Assembly: GCF_000003815.2 (NCBI RefSeq)
Contig: NC_049981.1
Coordinates: 23,418,273 to 23,482,272 of the forward strand
DNA length: 64,000 nucleotides
Direction: 5' to 3'
Source: Branchiostoma floridae
Lineage: Eukaryota; Chordata; Leptocardii; Amphioxiformes; Branchiostomatidae
Below are positions 7,197-63,255 of this stretch, piece by piece; within the stretch, counting starts at the first letter, position 1, and the number at the start of each line of letters is the position of its first letter. Both the position numbers and the translations under genes were made by a program. The notes beneath the pieces are model-generated. The model had not been told where the DNA came from. It did not search any database and saw nothing but the letters and a program-made list of their open reading frames with translations.

Positions 7197-7284
<88 letters not shown>

Positions 7285-7327
7285 AGTATATATATATATA
7301 TATCCAGTATATATATCTATATATCCA

Positions 7328-7371
<44 letters not shown>

Positions 7372-9094: not shown

Positions 9095-10069
9095 CTATTG
9101 CTTCTGTCTCTCGGCAAGACACTTCTTGACGGCTATAGCTATTGCAGAGGACATCACAAGCCCTGCACCACCGACGCTCAGTGGGGCTGGTATCTCTCCG
9201 AGGAACAGAAACTGCCAGGTGAAGGCAAACACGATATCCATGGTGCGAACAATCGCTACGGGGGCCGCCTTTTCCAACTGGAACGCCTTGGTCAGAAATG
9301 TCTGTCCGCCGACGCCACACAATCCAAGCGCTATCAGGTAGTACCGATCACTTCCGCAAGGCGGCATCCTGAACTCGCCGAAAGCCACCAGGAGCACAAA
9401 TGTAAGGATCATTCCGAAGACTGACAGGTACGTTATGTGCACGAGGAAGTGCACTGTTTTACCTAGCTTCCGAATCATAACCAAGGCCAGCGCGCTGAAG
9501 ACAGCACCTCCGAATGCCGAGAGCGTCCCGAGGAGGTGCTCGGTCGTATTCGGCACGCCGACGACGCTTCCGAAGATGAACGAAGGTTTGGAAATCAGAA
9601 CGACGCCTGTCAGAGTCGTCAGGGTGACCACAAAGTTGAACCATCCGTAACTCTCCTTCAGGATGAGCCATGCGAAGAGCGCGATGAAGATCGGAGAGCT
9701 GAAGATCACGGTTGTGGCGTCTCCTAGCGGAATGTGGTGAAACGCATAGAACTGCATGCACAGCGCCACCGCTCCGAAAACTCCCCTTCCTAGCAGATAC
9801 AACCGCGGAGACGTGTCCTCGGGAACGAGAGGTAGTTTCTTGTATATGATGGGAGGGAGAGCGCACACCAGCTGAGCGGCGCAGCGGAATAACGTGATCT
9901 CCAGCGGGTGGAGATCCCACACCAGTTTGACGAACAGAGAGCTCAGGGAGAAGAATAACGTGGACACCAGGGCACACACGAGTCCCAGGCCGGGGAAACT
10001 ACAAGAATTTCTCTTCACTGTGTCTCCAGAACCCGGTACCATTCTGCTCGAACTAGAACTTTCGGCCAT
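9095..10069 (-). CDS. SLC35G1: SLC35G1-like EamA/DMT transporter, intronless
   Basis: An uninterrupted 324-residue frame of very hydrophobic sequence, about ten predicted membrane segments in two EamA (DUF6) repeats (about res. 32-160 and 180-312). It follows human SLC35G1 (TMEM20/POST) closely in motif order: VKLVWDLHPLEIT and FRC in TM2, then GDATTVIFSSPIF, FAWLILKE, TGVVLISKP, VMIRKLGK, GGQTFLTKAFQLEKA, PVAIVRTMDIVFAF. Known biology of the family: human SLC35G1 sits in ER/plasma membrane and has been linked to STIM1/calcium handling and to organic-acid transport; the substrate here cannot be read from sequence. The Ser-rich N-terminus is cytosolic. The start at 10069 is the first ATG of the frame. 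It lies between the GLUT and espin genes, on the same strand, and has no visible intron, unlike every other gene here; an old retrocopy is possible, but no poly-A tract or flanking duplication is seen. Confidence 0.93.
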   Translation of the reverse strand: MAESSSSSRMVPGSGDTVKRNSCSFPGLGLVCALVSTLFFSLSSLFVKLVWDLHPLEITLFRCAAQLVCALPPIIYKKLPLVPEDTSPRLYLLGRGVFGAVALCMQFYAFHHIPLGDATTVIFSSPIFIALFAWLILKESYGWFNFVVTLTTLTGVVLISKPSFIFGSVVGVPNTTEHLLGTLSAFGGAVFSALALVMIRKLGKTVHFLVHITYLSVFGMILTFVLLVAFGEFRMPPCGSDRYYLIALGLCGVGGQTFLTKAFQLEKAAPVAIVRTMDIVFAFTWQFLFLGEIPAPLSVGGAGLVMSSAIAIAVKKCLAERQKQ

Positions 10070-10893
10070 AGTCCTGAAAAATCTAACAGTCTTAGCTACA
10101 GAACACAGCGACTTACTTTAAACCGGTAGCTTCATGTATTTTTGTTTTATTCTAAGGAAAACAAACACCTGTTGTGACGTCAGCAGACTAATCAATTCTC
10201 CGCAAGCTGTGACCCGTCATTCATATGAATATACAATTTTAGGGACCGACACAAACATAGGATAGAAGCCAGTCAGCCTTTAATATTCCCTAGCCATACT
10301 TTTTTTTAAGAAGCATAAAATCGCAGTCTTCTTCTTTTGATCCTCTACAGCTACTGTCGATTCAAGTACTGTAATATAAGATATCTAGATAGACCTTATT
10401 GGGATGCCAATGCTTTAGTTCAATACCCCAATACATGTATATATTAGCATACTAGTAACCCAGATACAGGTATTCACCATCGCCCCGACGTTTGTATAAG
10501 GCTAGGGACAGACCAGTAAGTATCGTGTCTAGGGTTGGGTAACATAGCACAACATCAAACTTTTGTAATTTACGCAGTTCTATCAAGGCAGTATTACACG
10601 ATTTTATTACCCAGTATATGATAACATATACGTACATATGACATTAACAATACAAATGAATACCGACATACGTTCCATGCATAATATGCCTAAAGCGAAG
10701 TGTCGTACGCTTATATTACAGGCATGTTTAGTTTCGATGATATGCCTACGTCGAAAAAAAAAAAATATCAACCATAGATATAATACATCAGATGCAGCAT
10801 ATACAATGGATGTTGGAATACTTTTATATAAGTACTGAACAATAGGTTGTACTATACAGGGTATATGAGAGATTAGAATTATCTTGAATCACA
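10070..10893. other. Interval between SLC35G1 start and espin stop
   Basis: SLC35G1 promoter side near 10070 and espin 3' side near 10893. A minus-strand AATAAA at 10608-10603, about 290 nt past the espin stop, is a plausible poly-A signal. No other gene is seen; AT-rich. Confidence 0.45.
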
Positions 10894-48600: not shown

Positions 48601-51600
48601 ATTGAAAGAGAGAGAAAGAGTGCAAGATAGACCAGGAGAGAGAGAAGAAGGGAAGGGAAAAATGTCAGAACACCTCAAGAAACAACAGAAAAAAACATAA
48701 AACACTTAATGATATGTCTATGAGGAAATACAAAGCAATGCCAGGGATACAATTTAGGAAATCCATATTTTTATAGAGCCAGTTTTCAGTCCACTCAAAA
48801 CTTACAAAACACCTCTGTACAAAATGTTCTAAAGCTATGAGATCATATGTGGTACATCTTAAGGCAAAACTTGTGAGAATACTGACTTAGTACTTTAAAT
48901 CTTTAAATGTTTGCAATGCCTTTATTTTTGCAATCTTCACAGTAACCCCTCTACTACAAAATCCTGACACCATACATCGCTTTACTACTGTACTTAAGAA
49001 TTGTTTAAAAAGCAGACCAAAACACAACGAAAACCTCATTTCCCCTCTAACACAAAATCACGTTCCTGCAAAAATAAATGAATCCACAGAATCCAGTGCT
49101 ACCAACCTTGCCATTCTCCGAGGTGGGTGATGCCAACTGGGGCACCTCAGGAGGGGGTGGAGGGGTCAGCATGTTGTTGGGATAGTCCATCAGGAGGGAG
49201 GCAACAGTGGCATGGCCACCCTTGGCACACTCAATCAGCATGGTAGAGCCATCCTGAGGAAAATATAGCACGTAATTGAGGACTCTGTTTCAATACATTA
49301 GAGTTGCAGGTTACAAAACACTGTAATTCCTGATTTTTGCAACGTTCACGGTTTTCACTGTGATGACTGTAACGTGACCTTATCATTACCGATAACAAAT
49401 AAATTGCTAACTTTTTTTACACGCACATGCTGCCACAAAGAACACTTGGTTCCGAGAACAAGTTAAATTTTCAGACCATGAAAGTTTGGTACTGAGAAGA
49501 CAAAGTGAATTACAGTATAGTCTCAGAACATCACAGTTGAAATCAACAAAAGATAGCATGGCCTTCAGAATTGTATTTCAATTCGCTGGGGTACCATATG
49601 ACAAAACATACTGTAACACAATGCTCATAACTGTGTTTCAGGCCTCAAGTATTTAAGAAAACAAAGCACACAACATCCAGGGCATCCTCCAACATCAAAA
49701 GAAACAGTAATGTAATGTTGAATCCAAGTGTTACGCTACCTTGAGCTTGTGCGATGGATCAGCTCCATGTGCCAACAGCAGTTCCACCACAGATATGTGC
49801 CCACCAGCGCAGGCCAGGGACAGCACCGTGTGGTCATTGTTAGACGTGGCTCTGTTCACATCCGCACCTGCAAATACAAATACATCAACAATTTATAAAA
49901 GCCACTGTCATATCATACACAAAGCTGGGCAAAATGTCCCCAGTTTAACATTGTTATCTTTTGGCAAGCTAGCTAAGTCAAAGGTTTTAGCAATTGTTTG
50001 TAAACCACCGTGATCAGAAAATTGTAAAGTCTGAATTTTCTAATACATGTACATCACAGTACATGATAGCATATGAATTGCAATGCCACTAGGTTCTGCA
50101 AGGTGTCATGCATACACTGCTGCATTTGAAAAATAAGATTCTCTAAATGCATTTAAGTTCACTGGGATTTTCTTTCCCGGTAGCGAGAACATGGAGTGGT
50201 CACAATTAAGGCTGGGTACCGGTAAAGAAAATTCAGGTTCCAGGTCCGGTTCAGGTGCAGAAGATCAGGTCCAGGTTTGGACCTGAACTTGGACCTGATT
50301 CAATATGTGAGAACTTGTGAAGGGACGACACTCAAAACAATGGTCCATTTCGTAACAAAGAAATCTGTTTTGTGGAGTATTTGACTCCCACTGGCGTTTC
50401 AAAATCCTACAAGGCTAACTGCCTCTGTACTATTGACTGTAAACCTTGGTAGAAATGACTCTACTCTACTTCGCTCTTGTTATTCTCCTCGACCGGTAAG
50501 CCCTGAAACGTGTGAATGCCTGATCGCATAATCTGTTCATTTTCCAATAGGTTCAACATCCGGTCCACCGATTTTTTTCAGGTTCAGTTTTTCTGGACCG
50601 GTCCAATAAGAAAAAAACGGTTTTGTACCGGCACACTGTACCGGTACCCACCCCTAGTCACAATGGTTTTAGGTTCGCGGTAGCGCCATAGACTGTAGTC
50701 ACATACTGTAATGGAAAAATGTTCATGGTGGTTTTAAGTTTGCGGTGAAGCGGCCACTGCGAAAACCACAAATATAAAACCACCGCGAACATTTCTGCAT
50801 TAACAGTAGTCTGTTGTCTCCTACCTCTGGTAATGAGGAACTGCACAGTGCACAGGTGGCCGGCACGTGCAGCCTTCATGAGGGGGGTGCGCCCTCCCTC
50901 CGACTCGTGCTCGAGCTCGGCGCCAGCCTGGAGAAGGATGTCCGCCACGTCCGTGTGGCCGTTCTCGCACGCGTAGGTCAGGGCGGTGTCGCCGGTCGCA
51001 GTCTGGGCATGGATGCTGGCACCTATGTGGTAAACAGGTAAACAATGGATGTTATCCAGGTCCTTCATAACTATGTAAACAATGCATACAAACAGTTCAG
51101 AAACATGCCAAATAGCAGTTACTCAAACAACTGGATGTGATTTGAAGGGGGTCAGATGTTTCAGATAACATCCAGTCTTTCGTCAGTGACATCATTCAGA
51201 AACACTTTCATATAAAACAAAACAAAACTCTTCCATTTCTAGCAACAACACAAACACAGTAAAAGTACAGTCATCAAACACAACTCTACACACATGTGGC
51301 ACAGCTTGTCCTCATAACTTTCAAAGCTAAGACCATATAAAGTAATGGTACTTCATCAATTATTGTGCCAAATGGTTGGCTAATGTATTGTCACCCCCTA
51401 GCAGCTGAGATGTAGTACTGCATGCTGACCTGCTTGGATGAGCTACTTGACCAGCTCCAGGTGCCCCGCCTTCACAAAACTTACAAACCACTTCAAAACC
51501 TTTTTTGGACTTACAAAATACCTCCGTAGAAAATGTTCTGTAGTTCTATAGCTATGAGATTATGTGCGGTACATTACTGCATGCTGACCTGCTTGGATGA

Positions 51601-54600
51601 GGTACTTGACCAGTTCCAGGTGTCCCTCCTGTGCAGCCTCCATCAGAGGAGTGGAGCAGCCCAGCTCCATGTCTGCTCCGGCCTTGATGAGGAAGTCTGA
51701 CACCTCCAGGAACCCCCCGCAGCAGGCCAGCGTCAGGGCTGTCTCCTGGGTCTCCTCTGTCTGGGCGTTGATGTTGGCACCTGTGAGGACAATTTACGGG
51801 ATTTACTGTAATTCACTTTCAATTGTTTTCTTGGTACATACCAAAGTTTCACAGTCTGAGAACATTTACCTTGTTCTCGGAACTGAATGTTCACAGTGAA
51901 CAAATTATTTGTGATCGTCACCAAGACGAATTATTTGTTATTGGTAATTTTATTTGTCATTGAGGTTGAGGTTTGACAATTTAGTGTGTATCTGACCTTG
52001 GCTGAGCAGCAGTGCCACCATCTCCTCGTGCCCCTCGCGTGCAGCCTCCATCAGCGGGGTGTACCCCTCATCGTTCACCTCCTCCAGGTTGGCTCCCCGC
52101 TCGATCAGCAGGTTGGCCAGCTCCACGTGACCTCCGCAGGCCGCCAGGGTCAGGGGTGACTCGAAACTGTCTGTGGGCATGTTGACTTGGGCACCGTGGT
52201 CCAGCAGTAACCTGGCAACCTCAACATGGCCGTCCTGGGGGACAAAAACACAACCTTTCAGACACAAATAATGACCAAAACGAACAGACACAGACTATGA
52301 ATGCTGAACTTTTCGACCTACTATATATCTTGTACCATGTAGGTGTAGTGATACAGGTTGATAGATTTATTAAGACTCAATGTAATCTGTATCTCTGCTA
52401 TATTTCATCTGACTCTTACATTCCTCATGACCTCAATGAAAAGCAGCCTGCAGGCTGATTTGACCTTCTCATGAATAAATAAAGGTTCAAACAAACAATT
52501 GCCAAAACTTTGATTGCTCAAGTATAACAGCAGCTGGAGAAAAAGTGCACTTCAGAATAGCCATAATACAGTGATTTGACTTGATCATGGCCATCCTGGT
52601 GGATGAGAAGAGAACTGCAGTTTTCAGAGACAGTTGCCAAAACTTGAAGTGCTAAAATAAAACAGCAGTTCGAGAAAATGCGCACTTTAAAAGAGCCATC
52701 AAATCAAATACTGGGATATTTCATAACTTCATGTCATCACAATGACAAAGCAATGTTAGCTTCCCTCTTTCTTGGAGACTGTGGCAATGACAAGTTTCTG
52801 CCATGTCCTAGACAATCAACTTGTTTTGTGATCAAGTATTGTAGCAAGCAGCAAGGAATACGAGCTGTAGTCTGACCATAGAAGCTTCCATGAGTGCCGT
52901 GTGCATCTCATCAGTCTTGTGCTCCTGGTCTGCACCAGCTTCCAACAGGAAACGTACCATGTCCAGGTGGCCTGCAAAACAACAAACATGCTGATTGGAC
53001 AACTGGGTTACAATTAGCCATTTCAAGTGGGGATACAAGTACCTTACAACAGATAAAGCAAGCTAATTGGACAACGAACTACAAATAGCCATTTCATTGG
53101 CCAACAGTAATCTGATCATGAGGGGATACAGGTACTCACAACAGACAAGCCAAGTTGATTGGACAGCTTGGTTAAAACTAGCAATACAAAACAATAAGGA
53201 ATTTCCATACTTCCAGCGTTTTCTATTAATAGGACTTTTATCAAGAACCATGCCATTCAAGGTAGGCAGAACAATCATACATGCTGACTAAGCTGCAACT
53301 AATCACCCAATTTGCATAACTAATGCCAATCAATCAATCAATTATTCGCATGCATCAGTGGTTGATGTGTGGTGGCTACAGACAGTTCGGACAGACATAA
53401 TACATGCAAATATTTATTTTATTCATTTGAATCAGACACCTGGCCCACATATACACATAACAATACACCTATAACCTAACTTATTCTACTGTCTGTGTAC
53501 CTCCGAGCAGGCTAGTGTGAGTGCCTTATTCTACAGTCCGTGTACCTTTGTAGCAGGCTAGTGTGAGTGCCTTATTCTACTGTCCGTGTACCTTTGTAGC
53601 AGGCTAGTGTGAGTGCCTTATTCTACTGTCCGTGTACCTTTGTAGCAGGCTAGTGTGAGTGCCTTATTCTACTGTCCGTGTACCTTTGTAGCAGGCTAGT
53701 GTGAGTGCCTTATTCTACAGTCCGTGTACCTTTGTAGCAGGCTAGTGTGAGTGCCTTATTCTACTGTCCGTGTACCTTTGTAGCAGGCTAGTGTGAGTGC
53801 CTTATTCTACTGTCCGTGTACCTTTGTAGCAGGCTAGTGTGAGTGCCTTATTCTACTGTCCGTGTACCTTTGTAGCAGGCTAGTGTGAGTGCCTTATTCT
53901 ACTGTCCGTGTACCTTTGTAGCAGGCTAGTGTGAGTGCCTTATTCTACTGTCCGTGTACCTTTGTAGCAGGCTAGTGTGAGTGCCTTATTCTGCTGTCCG
54001 TGTACCTTTGTAGCAGGCTAGTGTGAGTGCCTTATTCTACTGTCCGTGTACCTTTGTAGCAGGCTAGTGTGAGTGCGCTCTCTTTGAACCCATTGGAGTG
54101 AGTGTTGATGCCGGCCCCCCTCTCCAACAGGAGCCTGGCCACACCCATAACAACACAACAATACACCTATAACCTAACCTATTCTACTGTCCGTGTACCT
54201 TTGTAGCAGGCTAGTGTGAGTGCGCTCTCTTTGAACTCATTGGAGTGAGTGTTGATGCCGGCCCCCCTCTCCAACAGGAGCCTGGCCACACCCACGTGGC
54301 CGGCGCTGGAGGCCTCCATCAGGGGGGTGTGCCCGTTCTCGTTGTGATCCTCGATCCGCGCCCCCGCCTCCAGCAGAATACGGACAACATCTTCGTACCC
54401 ACCGGCACAGGCATACGTCAGAGCTGTGTTCCCTAACAGAGCAGACGGTTATGGGTCCGGGAATTACGTATCAGAGCGCAGGACAGAAAAGAGCATCCGA
54501 GGAAGCACAGCCTGTCTAGTGTTTAACAAGGTTCAATTTTTTTTTCTTAACGCAATTTGATTCCTACTATCTGGCATATACATCTATCTGGTTTACAAAG

Positions 54601-57600: not shown

Positions 57601-60600
57601 CATACATGTTACGAGCATACCTTTAAAATACCACTTGCATATATTGCAGGTTAGTGCAGGTATTTCTTATATCTAACCTGCACAAGCTCATGTTAAATTC
57701 AGCCCACAACACATGCCAGGGTGACAAACGAGCTACGGCCCCCAAATGCCCTGCATTCTTCATAGAACCATCCTTGAATACAGAAGATCAGAGATATGCT
57801 TGAAAATGATATAAACTATGAACATTTTCAAAACATTGTTTTTTGTCATGGACTGATTGCAGAGGCAATAAATGATTTTAATGTTACATGCACCAGTGCA
57901 TGTAGCAAGTCCAGACAGACAAGACCCAGGAAAAATTGCGTTTCTGGTTATGGCCCTGAAAAAATAAAGTCAGCAGGTAGGAAATGTCTTTTGATTGGTC
58001 TTTTTTAAAACTTCTCAGCCAAAGTTATCAAACAAAATTACAATTGAACAATGTTTCAAATGCCTCAGGACACCGTTACTGTGTTACATGATACAGATAT
58101 ACTAGTACATTTGTACAAGTGCCATATTCTAATGCAAGAGAGAAGTTCAGAAATGATTCTACAACGATTCCATCACTCAGATTCAAAATCTTGTATCACT
58201 TGCCAACAACTTACCACCATTACACTGTAATTTACAGGCTGGAAACGGCTAGGGCCAGTCGGGTAACAGAAAAACAACATGCAGTACTTTTATCTAGGCC
58301 AAAGTATTTTGAGTACTGATGCACAATATTTTTCTCTACATCTGCATGGCTTTTTCTAGCATTTTGAAGGACATTTGATTATTCAAGAGGTTATCCATAT
58401 TTGAGGGGGCTGCCCCTACACTTCAAATAGGGTCTGTCACTGTCAACCATCACTTTATGGATGGTCGCCAAATGTTAGGCAGGAGTGAGGAGGGAAAGAT
58501 AAGCGGCCTAATGACAGAGACTGGCCATTTGCACCTGTGCCTGCATCAGTTACACAGCATACACATATATCATGAATACTAACTTTTACTGGTACGATAC
58601 AAGTTATATGTTTAAACTTGCATATGTTTTCATGTAACAATGGTGTTCCACTTTCTTTAGCTATAATTTATACTAGGTTATATAAATCTATGGGAGAACT
58701 GTCTAGATTTAAACAGATTGTAACAGCTTCAGTTTTCCTTTTTACTGCACATACAGAGGAACAAAGGAAGAAGAAAATAAGAAGTCTGTTAAGTCAACAA
58801 TAATTCAATACCAATAACATAAGTGCTGTACAGCTCTAATATTTTTGTTAAATCACTACATGGCACAACAAATTTTTTATTCTGTATATAGCTCTAATAT
58901 TTTTGTTACATCACTACATGGCACAACAAAATGTTTACACATGATGGTCTTAAAATATCATTTCCAATGTTGTGCAAAAAGTTATCAATATTCTGTACAG
59001 CCAGAGGAATATAACATTCAATTCATATGGAACTTTAAAAAATGTTTTACCATTGATATTAAAATTACTATTCACAGCAACAATGCTTACCTTGCTCAGT
59101 CAATATCAAAGCAAAAGGATAATGACAAATATCCACAACTCTTTGTATAAATCTTTGTTTATTACTGCAATACATTTTGCAGTAATATCATAAGTACCAA
59201 AGATTTGTGTAGCAAGCTGTGCCGTAATGCATACTAAGTCGTACCATAATTCTTGTTAATTATATTTCTAAAAATTGGCAGCAAAACTTTCTATTGAGCT
59301 TCTTATCATCCTTTGTTTAATGTGAAGGATTACAAGATCATTTCATATTTGTAGCTATGTGTTTTCATATATGTTTGCTAGAAATAAGAACAAGCATATC
59401 TATATCTGTCTTCCTAAGAAAAAATTGAATGGGGCGGAGCAACTGAGCTGGGGGGTGGGGGTGGATGTTGCCCCTTCCAGAGTGGTGGTGAGTTTTAGCA
59501 AATTTGCAGTTACATTGGGCTATTCTAAAGCTTCTTGAGGGGGAGAAGTTTCTGTCTGACAGGTCTATGGTGATAGCGGCCTTGGAAGTGTGGTAGCATC
59601 ACTGAGTCAGACCAATCTGAATTTTATGCTCGTTACAGAATCCACTCCCCTGGGTAAGGGGGCAAGTCTTTGAGCATGGGGGCATGGTTTGAGCATGGAA
59701 TTGCAGCATGGGGGTGCAGTGGGCCTCTTCCTCTCTTCAGAACAAAATCTTGTATCTAACAAGTACAAGTTGATATCTTTTGCTGACACTACTTCATTGT
59801 AGGAGCATGATAAGCGCTCGCCAAATCAACAATTCAAACGCTGTATTTCAACGTGGTTTGACAAATTGTTTAATATTAATCAATACCAAGCCAGCCTATA
59901 AGTATAACATATCGAACTGTTGGTAAAATACATGGAGAAGTAAGTGCATTCAAATGTGTCTGCCACTGGTCAACTCCAAGTTTATTTTGTTAGCAGATGA
60001 GAAAAATAAACATTGTAAAAACGTGGGAATCCTACAGTATGTATGTACGACTAAGAGTAAGACATTTTGTAATACATAAAATATGCATCCATTGGCTTCA
60101 AGAAGTCCTAGCAAGAAATTATTAAAAATGTATGTTTTACAATTAAAAATTACACCTGCCTTAGCTTAGGGCTTGTAGTATGACCAGTAGTACTCATGCA
60201 TTTCTTTACCTTTGCCAAGAAAGTTATATTTTTGGTGTCCAGTGTGTTTGTCTATTGCAGCATAGCTCATGAGTGCATAGATCCTTATGATATTTGGTAC
60301 GTGAGTAGGGATGGGTTGGGTAAACAAAGGTCCAATTCGATAAGGGAAATGGGCCTCTTAGCGGCTTTCTTCAGTAATGCATTGAAACTTTTGGCTTTGA
60401 TATTCTGTGTTCTAGACAAGCTATTGTCATCATCTTTAACTTGAGTGGTAGATAGATCTGTTGTTATCGTAATTGTTTAGGGATAGATAGCTACAACACA
60501 CAAGCTACTATTAGACATGTATCAAACATGGACAGATTATCTATANNNNNNNNNNNNNNNNNNNNNNNNNNNNNNNNNNNNNNNNNNNNNNNNNNNNNNN

Positions 60601-63255
60601 NNNNNNNNNNNNNNNNNNNNNNNNNNNNNNNNNNNNNNNNNNNNNAGTATTGATTTAAAGAAATAACACCCACTCTCACACACTATCAGGCTTCCAGTTT
60701 GTTGGATGTATTTCATATTCAAAGATATGGATATTGTTAGCCTTCATCTTCAAATGCCAAAGAAGCTTGTACTAGCAATAGTAGCATAATTCCAAAGGGT
60801 AAGACTTATTGAAAGGAATTGGAATTTTCCCCCAGGAATCATTGACAGCAGCCGGTTGGTAAGATATAATGTCCAGGTAGAATAAAGAAAATAAAACGAA
60901 CAGTCATGGACTAAAATTCACGGTAGGTAACGTAGGTTGCACTAAAGAAATAAAAAATTCGACTAGATTTTAATTTACATGTGGGATATAACAATATCCC
61001 AGCATCAGGGATCCCAGCAGCAGTATAATCAAACAATGGATAGTGAGTGAGTGAGGTATAACAAAGAATATCAAAAAAACAATTCTGCATGCAAATCAAC
61101 ATTTACTGACCTGTAGCCAGCTCATTCTGAGAGGCAGTTGCACATGAAGGTGAATTTATTCAAGAACTGGAAAAACTTCACAATCACAGTTCACATCATA
61201 CACTCTCAAAAAGTCAAAGCCAACATATTCCTACACTACACAGCAAAGATTACAGCTAGAAGCCTCTCATGCTCGACTTTCTACCCAGTTTACATGAATT
61301 TTGGATGTGCTACTTTATATACCCGCATTACAGACCCCAGGGGTCGCAGACAAATACTGTGTTCTGCTACCTTCAATCACTTTTCACTGTTGCAATTTAT
61401 CTTGGACTATTTCCCCGCTGTATATTGCTCCTTTTCCTAGACCCCCCAATGGCGATTCTTGGTATTTGATAGATATCCAGGTACAATTTGCATTTCAAAG
61501 ACTGTCAAAACAATGCCGTTTTAAACAAGCCAGCGTAGTTACACTTGACTTACAACAAATGTATAATTTCTAGGTAACATTTACTTTACATGTAGCTGCA
61601 TATCACAGCAATTTATACTTGGATTCTTCAGGAGTGAACCAGTCTACCTACTGTTTATATATTCTATTACTGTCTATTTATATTTCCAACTTGTTTGCAG
61701 TTTTCTATTCTACCACTGACTGCAGTCAGTAGAGCATTTCACTTTCAGCCATTCACAATTTTTCTATATTAGAGTGGTACAATTACAAAACATGCTTGAA
61801 TGTTGACTTTTGGCAACATCATTTCTAATCTTTAATGAAAAGTTCTCAACTTGATTTGTTATTTTGCAATGTTATTGTGCTATCAACTGAACTTCATCAA
61901 TGATTCAATCAAAAATTTACATTACCGTACATGGTAAGCAATATTACTCAGTAAGTAACTGAGTACTAGTACTAGTATTAGCTAGTACTTTAGATTTATT
62001 AGAATTCTGTTATTTGGATTATAAAAATGTACATGTTGAGTACTGACTTCCTGAGTATCAGAATTATTCTATGACCATGCTTTTTTAGAAATCTTTTTTT
62101 CAATTCTTTATATGAATGTTAACTGTGAAAAATAACATGATCTCTTTGAAAAAGCAATGTGCACACTGCAATATTTATTATACTTTTATTTTTTATGAGA
62201 GAGGGGGCAACACATTGCCAAAGCCTAAACCATGCAATCAGAGATGGCAGACTTCACCCCATTCACATAGGTCAGAAACACACACAGACCACCAAAAAGA
62301 TGGCAACCAAGAAGACATTATCCACACTGCAATTACTATCTATCTGAATCCTGATGCATTCCTGGTCATACAAAAATTGCACCTGGTTCCAGAAAAACTG
62401 AAATATCCCTTTTCATAAAATTAGAAATCAAAAGTAACCAGAAAATATTATGGTTACAGAGTAGACTAACAAATATGCAAAACTACATAGTCATGTTGCT
62501 GGATGCCTATAATATAAAACTGAATGTCATTTTAATGTACAAAATGCTGACATCAGCCTATGAATCTACTGAATATGAAACATTCTCTATATTCTTACCA
62601 AATCAGACTTTCTGACCGATTGTGTTTTGTTTTGTTTGGCGTTTTACTGTATGTCTGGGACACAAGAGGTTTGTAATAAATGAATCGGAAAGTCAACATG
62701 CATCGACCCACCCACCCACCATGACCCCGAAAAAAATGCATTTCCCTACGTCACAAACTGTGTGGGTTTAAAGCCTATCGGGCAACGTAAACCATGACAT
62801 ATTGGTGCGTATATATTAGGATATTCTTTGTGGGTTTATGTATCATTTTTATCGGTAAGACTGGGATGTATTTTTCCGTGTGTCCGGTAGCATGCCACAC
62901 ATGATGATCGGCGTGTCTCTCAGTCTCAGGCAGGCGCCAAAAAAAATGACGACACGCCATGGTAAATTTCGACCCACAAAATCTGTTCCCTTCTGTCGTT
63001 CAGCGACCCATTCTAGACACCTGTTGGTCAGATTTCTACCGGGATAATGTCTGTTCTTACCTCAGAAACTTCTCCTTCCTCGCTGCCGGACAAATCAGCC
63101 ATCAAATCGTCCTGCATGGCAGCGGCTAGCACAGCATGGGGATCGGCGAGCTTGGTGAAGGTAACGTTCAGGGGCTCGACTTTGGACCCAGAATTCCCCT
63201 CATTCTTCGCCATCTGTTCGGGTTCCCCTTCTACATTTTGTATGTCATGCTGCAT
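31778..63255 (-). CDS. ANKHD1: ANKHD1/ANKRD17 (mask) multiple ankyrin repeats, single KH domain, 36 exons
   Basis: Thirty-six exons join in phase to 7740 nt, 2579 aa (human ANKHD1 2542, ANKRD17 about 2600). Order: acidic N-terminus; ankyrin block 1 (about res. 175-665); Pro/Gln/Ser linker with a coiled coil; ankyrin block 2 (about 1203-1545); basic coiled coil (about 1555-1640); KH domain with GRGG loop (1846-1849); long Pro/Ser/Thr/Gln-rich tail. Sequence identity to vertebrate ANKHD1 is near-complete in many repeats (e.g. GHLDMVRFLLEAGADQEHKT). Known roles: cytosolic/nuclear scaffold, cofactor of Yorkie/YAP in Hippo signalling, receptor tyrosine kinase signalling, antiviral RIG-I-like signalling for ANKRD17. 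An in-frame TGA 15 nt upstream of the ATG at 63255 fixes the start. A single gene here probably predates the vertebrate ANKHD1/ANKRD17 split. Exon coordinates are given in the block entries. Confidence 0.96.
33190..34930. other. ANKHD1: ANKHD1 intron between exons 33 and 34
   Basis: 1.76 kb of AT-rich intron with no recognised exon, RNA gene or element. Confidence 0.5.
36626..37117 (-). CDS. ANKHD1: ANKHD1 exon 32: core of the KH domain
   Basis: Exon 32 is 37117-36968; the domain continues into exon 33 (which starts at 36626). Residues about 1834-1900: MLVPGSAVSRVIGRGGCNIN, AIREVSGAHIELDKQK, RWITIKGNNDGMRQAQNLLN, ALIKEP. The GXXG loop is GRGG (1846-1849) and is intact, so single-stranded RNA/DNA binding is expected. 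Vertebrate ANKHD1 has VPASVVSRIMGRGGCNITAI in the same place. Confidence 0.95.
37505..37690. repeat. Dispersed repeat family H, copy 3
   Basis: The longest copy: GCAACTGGATATGATTTTGG, ACGTTTCAGATAGCCATCCA, GTGTCCTTCGTCAGTGACAC, then TTTTTATACCCTAGCTGTAA. A CCAGTGACACTGAGGTGATC block precedes it. Adjacent to ANKHD1 exon 31. Confidence 0.75.
37696..39616 (-). CDS. ANKHD1: ANKHD1 exons 27-31: basic coiled coil and pre-KH linker
   Basis: Exons 39616-39500, 39307-39166, 38777-38727, 38570-38231, 37875-37696. Exon 27 (ELLKKCHQSMEIIV, RQAAEANKNASILLEELDME) is highly conserved. Exon 28 is a run of Lys/Arg/Glu (REEKKKEAAARRREKKRQKR), a charged helix with likely nuclear-localisation character. Exon 29 is a 51-nt exon (EPVPLDPPAASTTTT). 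Exon 30 is Lys-rich and disordered. Exon 31 ends SPKRGSKKEEGWKEVIPK, the conserved lead-in to the KH domain (KRGQKREEGWKEV in vertebrates). Confidence 0.92.
38907..39082. mobile_element. MITE family D, copy 1
   Basis: Begins TACAGTCAAAACTGGAGACG and ends with the inverse ATTGACTGTTTA. The interior has GGACAGGTGGTCACTATAGA like copy 2 at 44714. In the ANKHD1 intron between exons 28 and 29. Confidence 0.7.
39937..43917 (-). CDS. ANKHD1: ANKHD1 exons 19-26: second ankyrin block
   Basis: Exons 43917-43806, 43319-43174, 42816-42674, 42390-42285, 41768-41661, 41249-41074, 40704-40542, 40032-39937. About ten ankyrin repeats (about res. 1203-1545): TESNHDTALTLACAGGHE, FTPLILAATAGHSSVVEVLL, SERTKDTPLSLACSGGRQE, GANKEHRNVSDYTPLSLAAS, TGSKLGISPLMLAAMNGH, IETNRNTALTLACFQGR, TGLTPLMEAASGGYAEVGRV, KKGNTPLWLAANGGH, ITPLMATFRKGHVKVVRWLV. 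Repeat order and loop residues are those of ANKHD1/ANKRD17, among the most conserved sequence in the window. Confidence 0.96.
40150..40340. repeat. Degenerate short tandem repeat in ANKHD1 intron
   Basis: Seven or so diverged copies of a roughly 20-27 bp unit like TTTTTCTGCAATCCCAAAT. The long reading frame across it on the minus strand is a repeat artefact. Confidence 0.65.
43570..43720. repeat. Dispersed repeat with GGTAAGGGGGC motif, copy 1
   Basis: Shares GACAGGTC, GAGAGTTTCATGCTTG-like sequence, and CTCCCCAGGGTAAGGGGGC with 59565-59740. In the ANKHD1 intron between exons 19 and 20. Confidence 0.5.
43964..44216. repeat. Tandem repeat filling ANKHD1 intron 18
   Basis: Three diverged units of about 80-90 bp: ACCCTTACAACAAATGG, then ACAATCTGCAGT, then GCTAGAAGGTGCA. 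The array occupies almost the whole intron between exon 18 (ends 44221) and exon 19 (starts 43917). Confidence 0.7.
44221..47859 (-). CDS. ANKHD1: ANKHD1 exons 13-18: linker between ankyrin blocks
   Basis: Exons 47859-47766, 47152-46983, 46722-46519, 46084-45608, 45471-45024, 44393-44221. Exon 13 has APRVPTQALPTVVPPQEPD, the vertebrate PRVPTHTLAMVVPPQEPD segment. Exons 14-15 form a coiled coil (LTELELRIKEAIEKNAQLQ; ERMAELNRQREEQLKKKQ; ILEELQKVERELQEK). Exons 16-17 are low-complexity Pro/Gln/Ser/Thr sequence, likely disordered and poorly conserved. Exon 18 ends GIEVDAQ, leading straight into TESNHDTALTLACAGG of the second block. Confidence 0.92.
44714..44895. mobile_element. MITE family D, copy 2
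   Basis: Ends TACAGTCAAACCTGT and ACAGGTTTGACTGTA are perfect 15-bp inverses. The interior repeats GTGGCCACTATAGACAGGTG-type blocks in both orientations. In the ANKHD1 intron between exons 17 and 18. Confidence 0.85.
45474..45520. repeat. (TGAA/TAAA)n microsatellite at a splice acceptor
   Basis: TGAATGAATAAATGAATAAA-type repeats abut ANKHD1 exon 17 (starts 45471). Read on the minus strand they are ATTCATTT repeats and serve as its polypyrimidine tract. Confidence 0.85.
47431..47760. repeat. Duplicated 5' edge of ANKHD1 exon 14 with its intron
   Basis: About 47431-47485 repeats 47109-47165 (CCCCTGCTGG..ACAGCC..AAACCCCACCTAAACAAC), i.e. the first bases of exon 14 plus its acceptor. The following intron (ending CTCTACATTAAATCAAATGA) also matches 47230-47290. 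Confidence 0.75.
48950..49046. other. ANKHD1: ANKHD1 intron 12 segment
   Basis: The intron between exons 12 and 13 (47860-49106) has no supported exon. At 48800-48865 it carries a copy of the ACTTACAAAACACCTC..AAAATGTTCT segment that recurs at 51505-51575. Confidence 0.45.
49107..55390 (-). CDS. ANKHD1: ANKHD1 exons 4-12: first ankyrin block
   Basis: Exons 55390-55246, 54977-54830, 54432-54199, 52971-52877, 52234-51997, 51780-51589, 51022-50825, 49867-49740, 49253-49107. Together they encode about fifteen ankyrin repeats (about res. 175-665), beginning SLAEACNEGDVAAVRRLL and ending DGSTMLIECAKGGHATVA then a Pro-rich PPPPPEVPQL. TPLMEAA and TALTYAC/TALTLAC alternate, as in vertebrate orthologues. 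Most introns cut within the Gly codon at repeat ends (phase 1), so exons are interchangeable modules. Ankyrin arrays of this kind are protein-binding surfaces. Introns here hold the exon-6 minisatellite, the exon-9 partial copy, a hAT element and a MITE. Confidence 0.95.
50207..50656. mobile_element. Non-autonomous hAT-type element with 8-bp target duplication
   Basis: Ends TAAGGCTGGGTACCGGTA and, inverted, TAGGGGTGGGTACCGGTA. It is flanked on both sides by GTCACAAT (50199-50206 and 50657-50664), the 8-bp duplication typical of hAT transposases. 450 bp, no transposase frame. The interior is rich in GGTCCAGGT palindromes. In the ANKHD1 intron between exons 10 and 11. Confidence 0.88.
50704..50808. 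mobile_element. Short MITE (family G) next to ANKHD1 exon 10
   Basis: Left arm TACTGTAATGGAAAAATGTT then CATGGTGGTTTTAAGTTTG; the right arm is the inverse (CAAATATAAAACCACCGCGA then ACATTTCTGCATTAACAGTA). It ends about 17 bp before the exon 10 donor. Confidence 0.8.
51104..51210. repeat. Dispersed repeat family H, copy 4
   Basis: TAGCAGTTACTCAAACAACT, GGATGTGATTTGAAGGGGGT, CAGATGTTTCAGATAACATC, CAGTCTTTCGTCAGTGACAT. In the ANKHD1 intron between exons 9 and 10. Confidence 0.7.
51411..51470 (-). pseudogene. ANKHD1: Partial copy of ANKHD1 exon 9 3' end with its donor
   Basis: Repeats 51570-51629 (exon 9 3' end plus donor) with few changes. On the minus strand it reads GHLELVK, stop, LIQAG: a TAC codon of the real exon has become TAG. 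The GTCAG donor is kept. It lies about 160 bp into the downstream intron. Confidence 0.8.
53480..54077 (-). repeat. ANKHD1: 46-bp minisatellite built from ANKHD1 exon 6 3' end and splice donor
   Basis: About 13 near-identical 46-bp units (CTTATT starts at 53525, 53571, 53617 and so on every 46 bp). On the minus strand each unit is the last 26 bases of exon 6 (ACTAGCCTGCTACAAAG) followed by the GTACACGGACAG donor and about 20 intronic bases. The first unit distal to the exon is variant (CTCGGAG). The real exon 6 end is at 54199. Confidence 0.93.
54052..54150 (-). pseudogene. ANKHD1: Larger partial copy of ANKHD1 exon 6
   Basis: Between the minisatellite and the true exon lies an extended copy reading VARLLLERGAGINTHSNGFK then ESALTLACYKG with the donor intact. 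It differs from the true exon mainly by Gly for Glu (SNGF versus SNEF). It has no visible acceptor, so it is not an independent exon. Confidence 0.85.
55075..55225. repeat. Dispersed repeat family H, copy 5
   Basis: GTTACTGAAGCAACTGGATA, TGATTTTGGAAACAATGAGA, CATTTCAGGCACCATCCGGT, then CTAGCTATGAATTGATATGC. Just downstream of exon 4. Confidence 0.7.
55450..55778. repeat. Degenerate tandem array echoing ANKHD1 exon 3 3' edge
   Basis: About four diverged copies of a 70-100 bp unit: CACTCAcccATCTcCATCcTGACTG-like start, then TTAAAAAAGACTCC, then AGGTATCACCAAAAACAC. The last unit start coincides with the exon 3 end and donor (55779). Confidence 0.65.
55779..63255 (-). CDS. ANKHD1: ANKHD1 exons 1-3: N-terminal region
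   Basis: Exon 1 63255-63061 (65 codons), exon 2 56449-56293, exon 3 55944-55779. Exon 1 ends EEGEVSE and joins VESFILDPEDLEG of exon 2, the same junction region as DEVSEVESFILDQEDLD in vertebrates. Exons 2-3 carry GADLRAVDPETQARLEALLE and GIGKLSTADGKAFADPEVLRR, an invariant segment before the first ankyrin repeat. Intron 1 is 6.6 kb, AT-rich, and holds the N gap. The 5' part of exon 2 is duplicated upstream at about 56522-56668, and the 3' end of exon 3 is echoed in the downstream intron. Confidence 0.93.
56522..56668 (-). pseudogene. ANKHD1: Tandem copy of ANKHD1 exon 2 5' edge
   Basis: Offset of about 138 bp from 56390-56515. It keeps the acceptor (ATAG) and reads VESFVLDPEDLEGHPMLDT before running into intron-like sequence with no good donor. 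Flanks (AAGAGGTTGTCGTTATGGAT) are duplicated too. Confidence 0.85.
56670..63040. other. ANKHD1: ANKHD1 intron 1
   Basis: About 6.4 kb of AT-rich intron. It contains the N gap and a repeat at 59565-59740 related to 43570-43720. No exon, RNA gene or transposase is recognised. Many scattered stops exclude long frames. Confidence 0.5.
60546..60645. other. Assembly gap (100 N)
   Basis: Exactly 100 N, the conventional size for a gap of unknown length. Reading frames across it are meaningless. It lies in ANKHD1 intron 1, so no known exon is interrupted. Confidence 1.

Follow-up and report, generated by a model that had tools for sequence, protein, structure and literature searches.

The window analysed here, a 64,000-nucleotide stretch of the Branchiostoma floridae assembly, contains a 46-bp tandem array that repeats the 3' edge of an ankyrin exon together with its splice donor. 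The array adds a long new case to a class that is already known, the amphioxus "mirages". With a probability of about 80%, we regard it as a mirage of the amphioxus type: a minisatellite that arose at an exon edge through slippage or unequal exchange, and whose decoy donors are silent by position.

Host gene and parent exon

The host gene is carried by the minus strand, so that "downstream" of an exon means lower coordinates. Its ankyrin exons form two clusters, at 55.4-49.2 kb and 43.9-40.6 kb, and a KH_1 domain at 37149-36967 (2e-13) lies on the same strand as these exons. Two ankyrin clusters and then a KH domain on one strand are what we take to be the ANKHD1/ANKRD17 architecture, which was mapped with a human probe. 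The domains in the window, found in that order, fit a host gene of the ANKHD1/ANKRD17 type. The parent exon of the array and its surroundings are as follows.

54199..54432, minus strand: parent ankyrin exon, 234 nt (open frame, acceptor TTAG, Pfam Ank 3e-15)
54197..54198, minus strand: GT of the real donor, AAG/GTACACGG; the frame resumes in the exon starting at 52971
52877..52971, minus strand: next exon of the host gene (continuation of the frame; edges set by hand)

Read on the minus strand from 54432 to 54199, the parent exon reads GNTALTYACAGGYEDVVRILLEAGARIEDHNENGHTPLMEASSAGHVGVARLLLERGAGINTHSNEFKESALTLACYKG to the exon end. Elsewhere in the window, 9098-10117 on the minus strand is an open frame that looks like a single exon; its 340 aa include an EamA transporter domain (9e-28). 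An assembly gap of exactly 100 N is located at 60546-60645.

Anatomy of the array

TRF assigned a period of 46 with 98% matches to 53480-54076; the score of 1145 was the top of the 17 rows for the window. The identity at lag 46 is 0.953 over this segment. As a control, 1000 single-base shuffles of the segment were scored for their best identity at any lag from 10 to 200, and the maximum was 0.361. The elements of the array and its flanks are listed below.

54148..54198, minus strand: intronic spacer from the real exon to the partial exon copy, with an in-frame TAG
54052..54147, minus strand: partial exon copy of 96 bp that differs from the end of the real exon by 1 mismatch (alignment; 115-bp repeat at 147-bp spacing)
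53480..54076, minus strand: 46-bp array, 13.0 copies (TRF)
54051, 54005, 53959, 53913, 53867, 53821, minus strand: decoy donors 1-6 (position listing)
53775, 53729, 53683, 53637, 53591, 53545, minus strand: decoy donors 7-12 (position listing)
53500, minus strand: decoy donor 13, diverged (position listing)
53439..53500, minus strand: distal intron flank; aligns, with divergence, to the flank that follows the real donor (alignment)

The original prediction had described an exon edge of an ANKHD1-type gene that was amplified, 5' splice site included, next to the parent exon, and a longer partial exon copy in between. The TRF result, the donor positions and the 96-bp copy that separates the array from the real exon all bear this out. 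Its details needed correction. There is indeed a row of decoys, but they are not about 14 identical ones: the 14 GGTACAC donors consist of the real one (54198) and 13 decoys, 12 of which contain the real donor's 11-mer AAG/GTACACGG, while the last and diverged one (53500) reads GAG/GTACACAG. The spacing claimed to be exactly 46 bp is so for eleven consecutive steps, but the first step from 54198, which leads to the decoy donor preceded by the partial exon copy, is 147 bp, and the last is 45 bp. The unit does span the boundary, as stated, but the split into 26 exonic and about 20 intronic bp is more precisely 25 exonic and 21 intronic bp, with the GT donor included in the latter. The array is regular inside, and its outer units are diverged; the distal flank aligns to the flank that follows the real donor with 58 matches, 3 substitutions and 4 gap events.

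Tandem arrays are often misassembled, and the copy number, or even the whole array, could have been made by the assembler. There are precedents in amphioxus: the excerpted text of PMC3087553 describes one mirage that was aberrantly assembled in the draft genome, and in the part of PMC3902484 available to us, the number of PGBD5 repeats varies between two assembly versions. In the latter case, however, resequencing upheld the repeats (PMC3902484, same part). The internal variants of the present array, its diverged outer unit and the partial exon copy's own mismatch would also be unlikely products of a simple assembler loop, and we consider an artefact very improbable. The exact number of copies may differ from the assembled one.

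Confinement to one locus

The whole assembly of 513,431,437 bases was searched with a 32-bp pattern across the exon/intron boundary, allowing up to 3 mismatches. All 13 matches are at this locus and correspond to the parent and 12 decoys; the reversed pattern, used as a control, had 0 matches in the whole assembly. With 13 of 13 matches local, a dispersed or mobile repeat can be ruled out. The array region as a whole has a full-length match in the assembly only to itself, and no second haplotype is present there. The DNA search omits very common words, and confinement is therefore better judged from the pattern search. Just past the array, 53302-53394 is a short interspersed element with at least 39 further matches in the assembly (81-93% identity); it is separate from the array and lies outside its limits.

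Origin of the array

A tandem duplication of the exon's 3' edge, the donor and the start of the intron probably gave rise to a local minisatellite. Its 46-bp boundary unit would have multiplied through slippage during replication or through unequal exchange, and some of the steps would have involved blocks of several units. The proposal that the array is a slipped-strand product is in keeping with its shape, which is as expected of slippage or unequal exchange. At the junction between units, intronic AATAAG abuts exonic GCACTC with zero shared bases. Units 9 and 13 have one variant in common, and a stretch of 276 nt recurs four units further on with 100% identity; together, these two observations argue for steps of several units.

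We infer that a further event, of 147 bp, put the partial copy of 96 bp where it now stands, with the real exon on one side and the array on the other. The motif GGCCAGG occurs both in the distal intron flank and near the start of the 96-bp copy, and is a possible pairing site for this event. The exon copies appear younger than the flank copies. The difference in divergence has a Fisher p of 0.30 when substitutions are taken over the whole flank, and of 0.018 when gap events within the first 49 nt are counted. Exchange between haplotypes might, tentatively, account for such a difference in age.

Donor strength and the outcome of decoy use

The real donor and each of 12 decoys pair with U1 at -5.6 kcal/mol, and the last decoy at -5.7 kcal/mol. 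The other donors of the host gene range from -13.5 to -3.9 (10 measured of the 15 other delimited ankyrin exons), and 5.8% of random GT sites (n = 500) pair with U1 equally well as, or better than, the real donor. The weak U1 pairing of the real donor leaves room for competition by the decoys. Since this donor equals 12 of the decoys in strength, the choice of site must rest on position or on the wider exon context.

Use of a decoy would retain between 147 and 698 nt and yield exons of 381-932 nt, compared to 234 nt via the real donor. According to the original prediction, a distal donor would retain a segment whose length is not a multiple of three. This fails for four of the 13 decoys (147, 285, 423, and 561 nt); moreover, the frame of the retained segment is not decisive, because an in-frame TAG, which ends 20 nt past the end of the real exon, is reached first in all 13 cases. 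An early stop of this kind would lead to nonsense-mediated decay (NMD), or else to a truncated product. Occasional use of a decoy would presumably result in an immediate stop and then in NMD.

These properties could make the array a splicing rheostat: the decoys would be rivals of the weak real donor, and the length of the allele would determine what fraction of transcripts terminates at the built-in stop and enters NMD, and would thereby tune the output of the gene. The weakness of the real donor, the 12 decoys that equal it in strength and the TAG 20 nt into any retained segment all speak for such a role. When donors are duplicated in vitro, the intron-proximal one is often preferred, which would favour the decoys. 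Even the first decoy, however, demands an exon of 381 nt, and the published mirages are reported, in the excerpts of PMC3087553 and PMC3902484, without interference with splicing. We give a regulatory role of this kind a small chance; if true, each extra unit would place, beyond a weak constitutive donor, one more site that competes for U1 on equal terms.

Judged from the sequence, the array is most likely a neutral minisatellite, with decoy donors that are probably largely silent, be it through position or through the wider exon context. Even silent decoys would be of use. The donors follow one another in steps of 46 nt and at growing exon length; their 25 nt of exonic context are the same, and their 21 nt of intronic context nearly so. 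With 12 of them equal to the parent, the series offers a natural experiment on how splicing selects one among many identical 5' sites, and on whether position is enough to decide the choice.

Other duplicated exon edges

The host gene contains a second exon-edge duplication.

51589..51780, minus strand: ankyrin exon, parent of the second exon-edge duplication (edge 51575-51630)
51416..51471, minus strand: second exon-edge copy, 56 bp, 93% identical, donor GT at 51429 intact

This copy sits 159 bp from the parent edge, and its exonic part holds a new stop. Two further cases involve myosin exons. At 722-1301 of locus L050, a myosin exon has its 3' edge and donor (FRHR, GTAAGT) recopied downstream at about 138 bp, and the donors of the downstream copies read GTAAAC, GCAAGG, and GTAAGC. 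At 2685-2806 of locus L057, the edge of a myosin exon has been copied downstream once; this copy is decayed, with TT in place of the donor GT.

These cases are from a survey of 120 of the 142 myosin-head exon matches (108 + 12), many of them in close paralogues, and the 16 ankyrin exons of the window; 22 myosin matches and 60 TCP1 exon matches were left out. A duplication was counted when it was at least 80% identical and at least 25 long, lay no further than 1000 bp away and shared 8 bp or more with the exon match. Four of the 136 exons had a duplicated edge, a count that may miss some duplications where a profile match stops short of the true exon edge. The share among the ankyrin exons, whose edges were set by hand, is biased (2 of 16), as this gene prompted the search; the figure for the myosin exons alone (2 of 120) is fairer. 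By this survey, duplicated exon edges do not seem to be rare in this assembly.

All four duplications are on the donor side and none is on the acceptor side, as might be expected if a dedicated process duplicated exon edges such as donors in this genome, with the array as its product and perhaps as a step towards intron gain; mirages have been put forward as the raw material for new introns in a published model (PMC3087553, in excerpt). The bias of 4 to 0 is, however, not significant (two-sided sign test, p = 0.125), and an acceptor-side mirage does exist, in the globin gene BflGb6 (PMC3087553, as excerpted). Background local duplication also has to be considered. It covers 1072 of 134,320 bases in the myosin stretches (0.8%) and 1594 bases of the window outside the array (about 2.5%); these counts include both myosin cases and, in the window, the long TA dinucleotide repeat at 7200-7370 (84 copies), and the scan of the window ended about 800 bases short of its end. 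From this background, about 2 to 7 of the 272 edges would be duplicated by chance. The observed 4 of 272 edges fall inside this expectation, with no sign of enrichment at exon edges, and thus reveal no special mirage-forming process. We hold a dedicated process to be very improbable.

Comparison with known mirages and related minisatellites

What places the array among the mirages is that its tandem unit crosses an exon/intron boundary, splice site included, and that the copies adjoin the parent exon at 54432-54199 inside that exon's own downstream intron. A literature search that joined amphioxus, ANKHD1 and tandem repeat found no report in the collection of papers searched. The array is long and sits in a conserved ankyrin-KH gene, and it lengthens the short list of described amphioxus mirages. 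Outside amphioxus, a human interferon-induced transcript is said, to go by the title of Turri et al. 1995, to contain a minisatellite with multiple splice donor sites. Its repeated donors resemble those of the array; by the same title, they are used in transcripts there.

In amphioxus, tandem repeats of exon/intron boundaries have been described under the name of mirages in the Adh3, globin, TnC, and PGBD5 genes (PMC3087553 and PMC3902484, in the excerpts available). They cover 5' or 3' boundaries and are unstable in length, and regular splicing is reportedly undisturbed (PMC3087553, in excerpt). The Adh3 mirages (Canestro et al. 2002, as relayed in the excerpt of PMC3087553) consist of boundary-spanning tandem units of 10-72 bp, a range that includes 46 bp. 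Adh3 is a different gene, and the same text reports instability and normal splicing for Adh3.

The globin genes BflGb6 and BflGb9 have boundary duplications beside the real exon, as is the case in the array (PMC3087553, excerpted text). In BflGb9, a unit of 157 bp duplicates the 3' boundary of the exon, which is near the 147-bp step of the array. The BflGb6 repeats are on the acceptor side and number 6 and 3 units in two haplotypes (same excerpts), whereas the array is on the donor side and comprises 13 decoys. The repeats in PGBD5 and TnC contain the splice sites of real exons, as do the units of the array; those in PGBD5 are imperfect and 60 and 108 bp long (PMC3902484, in the part available), whereas the units of the array are 46 bp long and nearly identical.
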